64,000 nucleotides of DNA. Source: Imbricaverruca yamaguchii (taxonomy: Eukaryota; Arthropoda; Thecostraca; Neoverrucidae). Under the pieces are notes generated by a model that ran no database searches, was not told the origin of the DNA, and saw only the letters and a list, made by a program, of their open reading frames with translations. Below are positions 34,316 through 56,508 of this stretch, piece after piece (position 1 is the first letter of the stretch; every line of letters starts with the position of its first letter). The position numbers were made by a program, and so were the translations under genes. The stretch lies in the NCBI GenBank assembly GCA_034440575.1, contig JAOTOL010001633.1:806001-870000 (forward strand), given 5' to 3'.

Positions 34316-34415
34316 TTAGTCGGACGAGAAGTCCTCCAGGCCTGGCTCTCTGGTGAAGCACATGATCTGAAGCTTCATGTTGGTTCGGAACTCCTTGAGC
34401 AGGTCCTCGACCAGT
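34316..34415 (-). CDS. EXOC2: EXOC2 exon 17 (C-terminus, stop)
   Basis: Encodes LVEDLLKEFRTNMKLQIMCF, then TREPGLEDFSSD and TAA. It matches the final helix of Sec5. The acceptor is CGTTTCAG. The open frame on + over this region is a shadow. Confidence 0.88.

Positions 34416-56508: not shown

Follow-up and report, generated by a model that had tools for sequence, protein, structure and literature searches.

Minisatellites fill much of the introns of EXOC2 in the barnacle Imbricaverruca yamaguchii and several meet a splice site, which raises the question of whether they are amplified exon-intron junctions, whether this is peculiar to one gene and how such arrays arise. We examined a 64,000-nucleotide stretch of the genome (hereafter the window), which holds EXOC2 and a cyclophilin gene, together with genes that had not been chosen for the pattern.

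Arrays at exon edges in the window

The spliced EXOC2 product of 872 codons, stop counted, is collinear with and 84-87% identical to three barnacle EXOC2 proteins, those of Pollicipes pollicipes and Amphibalanus amphitrite among them; the next relative shows 54% identity. GT-AG ends were found in all 17 introns, and the total of 18 coding exons includes exon 17 (37098-37160), which the earlier note on this DNA had overlooked. Alignment gaps are confined to exons 8 and 13, with none at an array-bearing junction, and the predicted protein is unchanged in comparison with its relatives. The Sec5 family has four matches in the assembly (767 Mb, 1430 contigs), all at this locus. Arrays were called with TRF and take up 7175/19574 bases of the EXOC2 introns; the gene and the arrays discussed below are as follows.

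34316..56505, minus strand: EXOC2 (Sec5) coding region, 18 coding exons, GT-AG introns
56397..56505 and 34316..34415, minus strand: EXOC2 end exons, exon 1 and exon 18, respectively
51383..52961, minus strand: exon 6 donor array, 42-bp unit, 40 aligned rows, 17 exon nt; exon 52945..53159
50634..50958, minus strand: exon 7 acceptor array, 119-bp unit, 2.7 copies, 47 exon nt; exon 50565..50680
44038..45555, minus strand: exon 13 acceptor array, abutting, 51-, 35- and 86-bp units, 2 exon nt; exon 43858..44039
43547..43898, minus strand: exon 13 donor array, 60-bp unit, 41 exon nt, GT in 5/6 rows
42124..42584, minus strand: 11-bp array sharing the intron of the exon 15 array and in places related to its unit
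39649..42062, minus strand: exon 15 acceptor array, 83-bp unit, 30 aligned rows, 45 exon nt; exon 39572..39693
37049..37109, minus strand: short exon 17 donor array, 19/20-bp unit, 12 exon nt; exon 37098..37160

Exon bases within a unit were counted by cyclic alignment, and the exon content of each EXOC2 or cyclophilin array was tested against 300 shuffled exons, for which P = 0.003 is the floor. TRF, alignment and shuffles together confirmed the earlier note in its reading that the unit contains the splice site with adjoining exon bases at the exon 6 donor, exon 7 acceptor, exon 13 donor and exon 15 acceptor. The clearest case is the exon 15 acceptor, where 30 rows extend over 2.4 kb with AG in 23/30; a 16-base junction-spanning motif is matched by 18 copies, and 17 copies carry GACTAGTTGG, which places a TAG in the exon's frame (the frame being determined by reading). 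Two full extra copies follow the exon 7 acceptor, with AG in 3/3 rows, and five rows besides the exon's own make up the exon 13 donor array. All three reached P = 0.003 on the exon-alone score (300 shuffles each). The exon 6 donor array did the same (P = 0.003; P = 0.027 on the number of exon bases; 300 shuffles), and its 39 rows besides the exon's own mostly carry CAGGACGTGAGG in place of CAG/GTGAGG.

A fifth array had been described as merely adjoining the exon 13 acceptor, and so it does: its two exon nucleotides are not beyond chance (exon-alone score P = 0.77; 300 shuffles), with AG in 10/15 rows among those aligned up to 44700. The exon 17 donor array is a weaker case, with P = 0.030 on exon bases and 0.10 on the exon-alone score (300 shuffles). 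Six more intronic arrays of EXOC2, starting at 34452, 36178, 37373, 42124, 43312 and 45746, cross no junction; the one at 42124..42584 gave three blast hits of a segment of the exon 15 array. The broader claim that the minisatellites of EXOC2 are junction amplifications therefore holds for five edges with exon bases, exon 17 weakly, but not for every minisatellite of the gene, as these six arrays show.

The cyclophilin gene of the window is likewise rich in arrays, which make up 3419/4999 of its intron bases. Its model consists of the three exons found (10409..10628, 13180..13382 and 15831..15971); the 5' exon or exons were not found.

10409..15971, plus strand: cyclophilin gene (PF00160, E = 3.3e-52)
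10627..11129, plus strand: first cyclophilin donor array, 25-bp unit, 21 rows, GT in 19/21; exon 10409..10628
11278..13160, plus strand: 59-bp cyclophilin array; distance from its end to the following acceptor (exon 13180..13382) 19 bp (TRF: 25 bp)
13382..14341, plus strand: second cyclophilin donor array, 66-bp unit, 16 rows, 1 exon nt; exon 13180..13382

At neither donor array was the exon part (two nucleotides in the first) beyond chance in 300 shuffles. The second begins with a degenerate copy that is visible by cyclic alignment only, TRF placing the start at 13431. Together with the exon 13 acceptor array of EXOC2, these two make 3/8 window arrays that only abut an exon. The 59-bp array was rejected as a junction array: it stops 19 bp short, and its exon score gave P = 0.59.

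Several other features of the window were recorded. Between the cyclophilin gene and EXOC2 (16.5-33.5 kb), a Pfam search returned no gene above cut-off. An intergenic 19-bp array at 17671-18670 has about 50 copies with a consensus that holds CAGGTG (AG/GT), and no gene was found beside it. Two weak Pfam hits below cut-off, one to a reverse transcriptase (about 20391-20537, plus strand; E = 0.0033) and one to the HTH domain of the Mos1 transposase (about 32211-32324, minus strand; E = 0.00022), are perhaps remnants of mobile elements. An open frame at 1009-1467 (plus strand) has zinc-knuckle-like motifs, which we take to resemble those of retroelement gag, and gave no Pfam hit. Interstitial GGTTA, GGGTT, TGGGC and GGATA pentamer arrays occupy 4867-5202, starting with TTAGG, the arthropod telomere motif, in rotation. 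Repeated tRNA-like stretches at about 49540-49630, 50000-50100, 54530-54650 and 54800-54950 resemble, by eye, a tRNA-derived SINE; ARAGORN found no tRNA in them.

Genes not chosen for the pattern and the placement of arrays

The unselected sample came from 240 kb around the window, where exons were located by codon bias and then with barnacle proteins. It comprises WDR54, PCGF3, GOSR1 and NCOR, with 17 introns solved (five of them in NCOR) and the exon 4 donor of WDR54 reset by hand. The statistics omit MED20, apparently intronless genes, other candidate coding stretches, unbridged NCOR introns and a CCT gene; for MED20, searched as part of a composite query, no MED20 was among the hits inspected. 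Exon content in WDR54 and PCGF3 was tested with 200 shuffles (floor P = 0.005).

Exon-carrying arrays were present in these genes too. The WDR54 exon 1 donor array crosses the junction with 46 exon nt when the unit is taken as 160 bp (P = 0.005), and with only 5 when the 45-bp sub-unit is used (P = 0.13). This array is nested (G000:C1400:990655-991149): within the 160-bp unit the exon edge comes first, and after it come shorter sub-copies, which once more start with CCAG/GTCAGG. At the WDR54 exon 3 acceptor, 28 exon nt were counted by cyclic alignment and 11 by TRF (P = 0.005), and three near-identical copies with GTGAGA at the PCGF3 exon 3 donor include 32 exon nt (P = 0.005). Other arrays in the unselected genes end 3, 9, 22, 34 and 35 bp from an exon edge, and no junction-crossing array was found in GOSR1 or the five solved NCOR introns.

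The CCT gene, presumably CCT2, lies on another contig of which 7 kb was readable; it was picked for its five closely spaced exons, and the edges were read by eye. At its exon 5 donor, a 96-bp unit that includes 51 exon nt is present in 2.1 copies. Because the two copies are ~97% identical (the first 97 aligned bases include 3 mismatches), this array looks like an incipient case, a first step before amplification. The second donor, if used, would add 32 codons without a stop and leave the frame open. A CCT-family gene occurs on both contigs C89 and C1012 of assembly G000, with match ranges and scores that are nearly equal and four between-match distances that differ (about 10.0 kb versus 1.15 kb, for example); these copies are perhaps two haplotypes with unstable introns.

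In all, exon-carrying units were found at nine edges in four genes (five in EXOC2, two in WDR54 and one each in PCGF3 and CCT), the weakest being the EXOC2 exon 17 donor, and donors and acceptors are both represented. For the six genes, the count is 8/72 exon edges: 5/38 in the window genes and 3/34 in the unselected ones. A process restricted to EXOC2 is therefore rejected, as other genes have junction arrays, including the abutting form in cyclophilin.

Are arrays placed at exon edges more often than chance would have it? The earlier note had proposed comparing array edges with splice sites against random placement, and we ran this comparison on the six genes (31 arrays, 36 introns, TRF ends), of which the two window genes had been preselected in that note and the other four had not. 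Repeats with a unit under 6 bp were dropped before counting. For the null, each intronic array was reduced to a single unit, and its position was redrawn within the intron as shortened by this collapse. Arrays crossing an edge or ending within 50 bp of it numbered 19/31 against 7.07 expected under uniform placement (P = 8e-7), and 8/14 against 2.53 in the unselected genes (P = 8e-4); when the arrays were placed at their full lengths, P was 0.0002 for the six genes and 0.0010 for the unselected ones. First array ends gave the same picture, at 2.25 per kb between -80 and +49 versus 0.47 per kb deeper (P = 5e-5), and 1.98 versus 0.43 per kb in the unselected genes (P = 0.007). Strict crossing by TRF ends was seen for 9/31 arrays against 3.36 expected under uniform placement (P = 0.0026), while the unselected genes alone gave a non-significant 3/14 against 1.26 (P = 0.12). 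In the window genes, crossing reached 8/17 against 2.20 expected (P = 2e-4), or 6/17 by TRF ends alone (P = 0.010). An extended count, which adds three arrays that cross by cyclic alignment only (EXOC2 exon 15 acceptor, second cyclophilin donor and PCGF3 exon 2 donor), rose to 12/31 (P = 1e-5, uniform).

Base composition bears on how these excesses are read. Minisatellites could arise at random wherever the sequence is GC-rich; as this holds for exon edges, a fixed share would cross junctions, with the junctions themselves irrelevant. Intergenic arrays of the window have a mean GC of 0.60 in surroundings of 0.51, and EXOC2 exons have 0.63 compared with 0.49 in its non-array introns. When placement was weighted by GC, strict crossing was no longer significantly enriched (9/31 versus 5.61, P = 0.077; unselected genes 3/14 versus 2.38, P = 0.44), as this explanation predicts. 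The near-edge excess, however, survived the weighting (19/31 versus 11.4, P = 0.002; unselected genes 8/14 versus 4.47, P = 0.035), as did extended crossing (12/31 versus 5.61, P = 0.003, the cyclophilin overlap being one base). As a full account, a by-product of GC content is conceivable and, in our judgement, somewhat doubtful. The concentration of arrays at exon edges is real and, since the near-edge excess was kept and strict crossing lost under GC weighting, partly a GC effect. Transcription could offer another source of edge births, through R-loops or G-rich non-template DNA near edges that would lead to breaks or slippage and leave arrays G-rich on the coding strand. Among intronic arrays of 200 bp or more, G exceeds C on the coding strand in 16/19 (P = 0.004), in genes of both orientations, and the skew of non-array introns in the window genes is +0.02. 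The unselected genes alone gave 8/10 (P = 0.11), however, short arrays are unbiased (6/12) and the skew may postdate array birth; as the main cause, we consider transcription unlikely.

Splice-site copies and probable growth of the arrays

The arrays had also been described as holding decoy splice sites. Candidate sites were scored with a matrix built from EXOC2 and cyclophilin (19 donors, 20 acceptors), with each real site omitted in turn. Sites scoring at least as high as the real one numbered 17 at the first cyclophilin donor, 8 at the exon 15 acceptor, 3 at the exon 13 donor and 2 at the exon 13 acceptor; there was one at the exon 6 donor and none at the exon 17 donor, the second cyclophilin donor or the exon 7 acceptor. 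At least two decoys as strong as the real site were thus present in 4/8 window arrays only, and the description fits these four junctions but not the other four. Across seven arrays (exon 17 excepted), and with the genuine site included, AG or GT is kept in 23/30, 19/21, 10/15, 5/6, 3/3, 2/40 and 1/16 rows, the last two being GT at the aligned place of the exon 6 and second cyclophilin donors.

Such copies could be functional, retained for splicing regulation by, for example, recursive splicing at AG/GT copies or stop-containing isoforms. That AG or GT persists in many rows of four arrays would agree with this, as would the finding that each of the 44 sites within 1 bit of the real one would bring in a stop codon, 43 of them within the insert and 1 further on. 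Any long intronic insert can be expected to contain stops, however, and half of the window arrays (4/8) have at most one site that equals the real one in strength; the aligned GT is nearly absent from the two arrays just named, and the second CCT donor keeps the frame open. We regard a regulatory role as very improbable. Misassembly is common in tandem arrays and might have produced the pattern, but copies differ by substitutions and indels, and arrays with exon bases are present in four genes from two contigs, in some cases with no more than two or three copies in a space of about 200 bp. An assembly artefact is extremely improbable.

How far have the junction copies spread? Tandem repeats with a unit of 10 bp or more make up 17.6% of 304 kb; in four other contigs, each sampled over 10 kb, the share was 8.4, 7.9, 12.0 and 27.4%. 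Blast searches of 160-bp segments of 10 arrays against the 304 kb (E 1e-3) found no copy beyond the array's own intron, and dispersal of units by transposition was rejected on this basis. Of the earlier proposal that junctions are duplicated and spread into the intron, the first part agrees with tandem copies that lie in the intron and array ends at the edges; the spread is local only, within the array's own intron in the 304 kb searched.

Growth restricted to inner copies would be expected to leave the exon copy as an outlier, and mean identities show this in only 2/8 arrays (exon 6 donor and second cyclophilin donor). At five others (exon 7 acceptor, exon 13 acceptor, exon 13 donor, exon 15 acceptor and first cyclophilin donor) inner copies on average resemble the exon copy more than they resemble one another, and in the exon 17 donor array the two measures are level. 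Inner copies share differences from the exon copy at 3 columns in the exon 6 donor array, 4 in the second cyclophilin donor, 2 in the exon 15 acceptor and 1 in the first cyclophilin donor. By mean identity, a shielding of inner copies from the exon copy is unsupported in most arrays.

We conclude that these are very probably mirage-type minisatellites, in which a tandem duplication crosses a junction, growth follows inside the intron and splicing would be kept at the exon-proximal copy. A short duplication across an exon-intron junction would leave the exon and its own splice site in place and let the spare copy fall into the intron. It would be tolerated because the exon-proximal site is likely kept; that this is the site used in splicing is our reading from DNA. 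Duplications inside exons would alter the protein and presumably be removed by selection. Arrays may then grow by unequal exchange or slippage among copies. Near exon edges the rate of array birth is higher. GC content accounts for part of this, since arrays start where GC is high, as it is at exon edges; that the longer arrays have a G-rich coding strand hints at a second cause, which may be co-transcriptional.

Relation to known junction duplications

The earlier note knew of no description of a repeated junction pattern, but one exists: amphioxus 'mirages' are known from Adh3, the globins BflGb6 and BflGb9, troponin C and PGBD5, with regular splicing reported as kept, according to the accessible parts of two papers (PMC3087553; PMC3902484). 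The barnacle arrays match them in pattern and are of a kind already known. No mirage report from a barnacle or other arthropod was among the matches listed in the literature, where subscription papers were mostly outside reach, and the words 'tandem' and 'satellite' are absent from the main text of the barnacle genome papers searched for them. In the literature searched, mirages are otherwise an amphioxus feature, and the barnacle genome offers many natural replicates. They bring two long-standing questions within reach of a test: what lets the spliceosome pick the exon-proximal site when near-identical copies lie close by, and with what frequency duplicated junctions make introns larger or give rise to new ones. 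The arrays also matter for gene annotation in such genomes because they form a large share of the intron bases of EXOC2 and cyclophilin. A wider reading, which we put forward only tentatively, is that exon edges in this lineage are hot spots of minisatellite birth, with junctions duplicated genome-wide into introns, swelling them and supplying spare splice sites, as evolved independently in amphioxus. Amphioxus is a very polymorphic marine animal. High diversity has also been described in one barnacle, in the available part of the report (PMC8270832).

Two other systems differ in outcome. Human genes in segmental duplications contain internal minisatellite units that average 30 bp, lie in some cases at exon-intron boundaries and change gene structure; as far as the accessible text describes them, they lengthen exons or give novel introns (PMC2812944), whereas the barnacle copies lie in existing introns. 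In the Rogers model, as outlined in the accessible text of a paper that cites it (PMC3087553), introns are gained by tandem genomic duplication that includes splice signals. Gain of this type creates a new intron, whereas the barnacle arrays enlarge existing ones. The potato RdRp gene is reportedly a case of intron gain by tandem genomic duplication.

The closest likeness is to the amphioxus mirages. Both are minisatellite-like tandem duplications across exon-intron boundaries, at 5' and 3' splice sites, and in both AG or GT is found in many but not all copies, going by the parts of the amphioxus papers at hand (PMC3087553; PMC3902484). A mirage is further characterized by instability in length and in the soma and by an edge copy outside concerted evolution; among the eight barnacle arrays the exon copy is an outlier in two, closer in five and level in one. 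Scale differs too, with up to 30-40 aligned rows and 2.4 kb in the barnacle compared with the 6 and 3 units given for BflGb6 haplotypes in the available amphioxus text. Finally, the barnacle arrays belong to another phylum, and EXOC2 alone has several arrayed edges at once, among them the two ends of intron 6 and those of exon 13.
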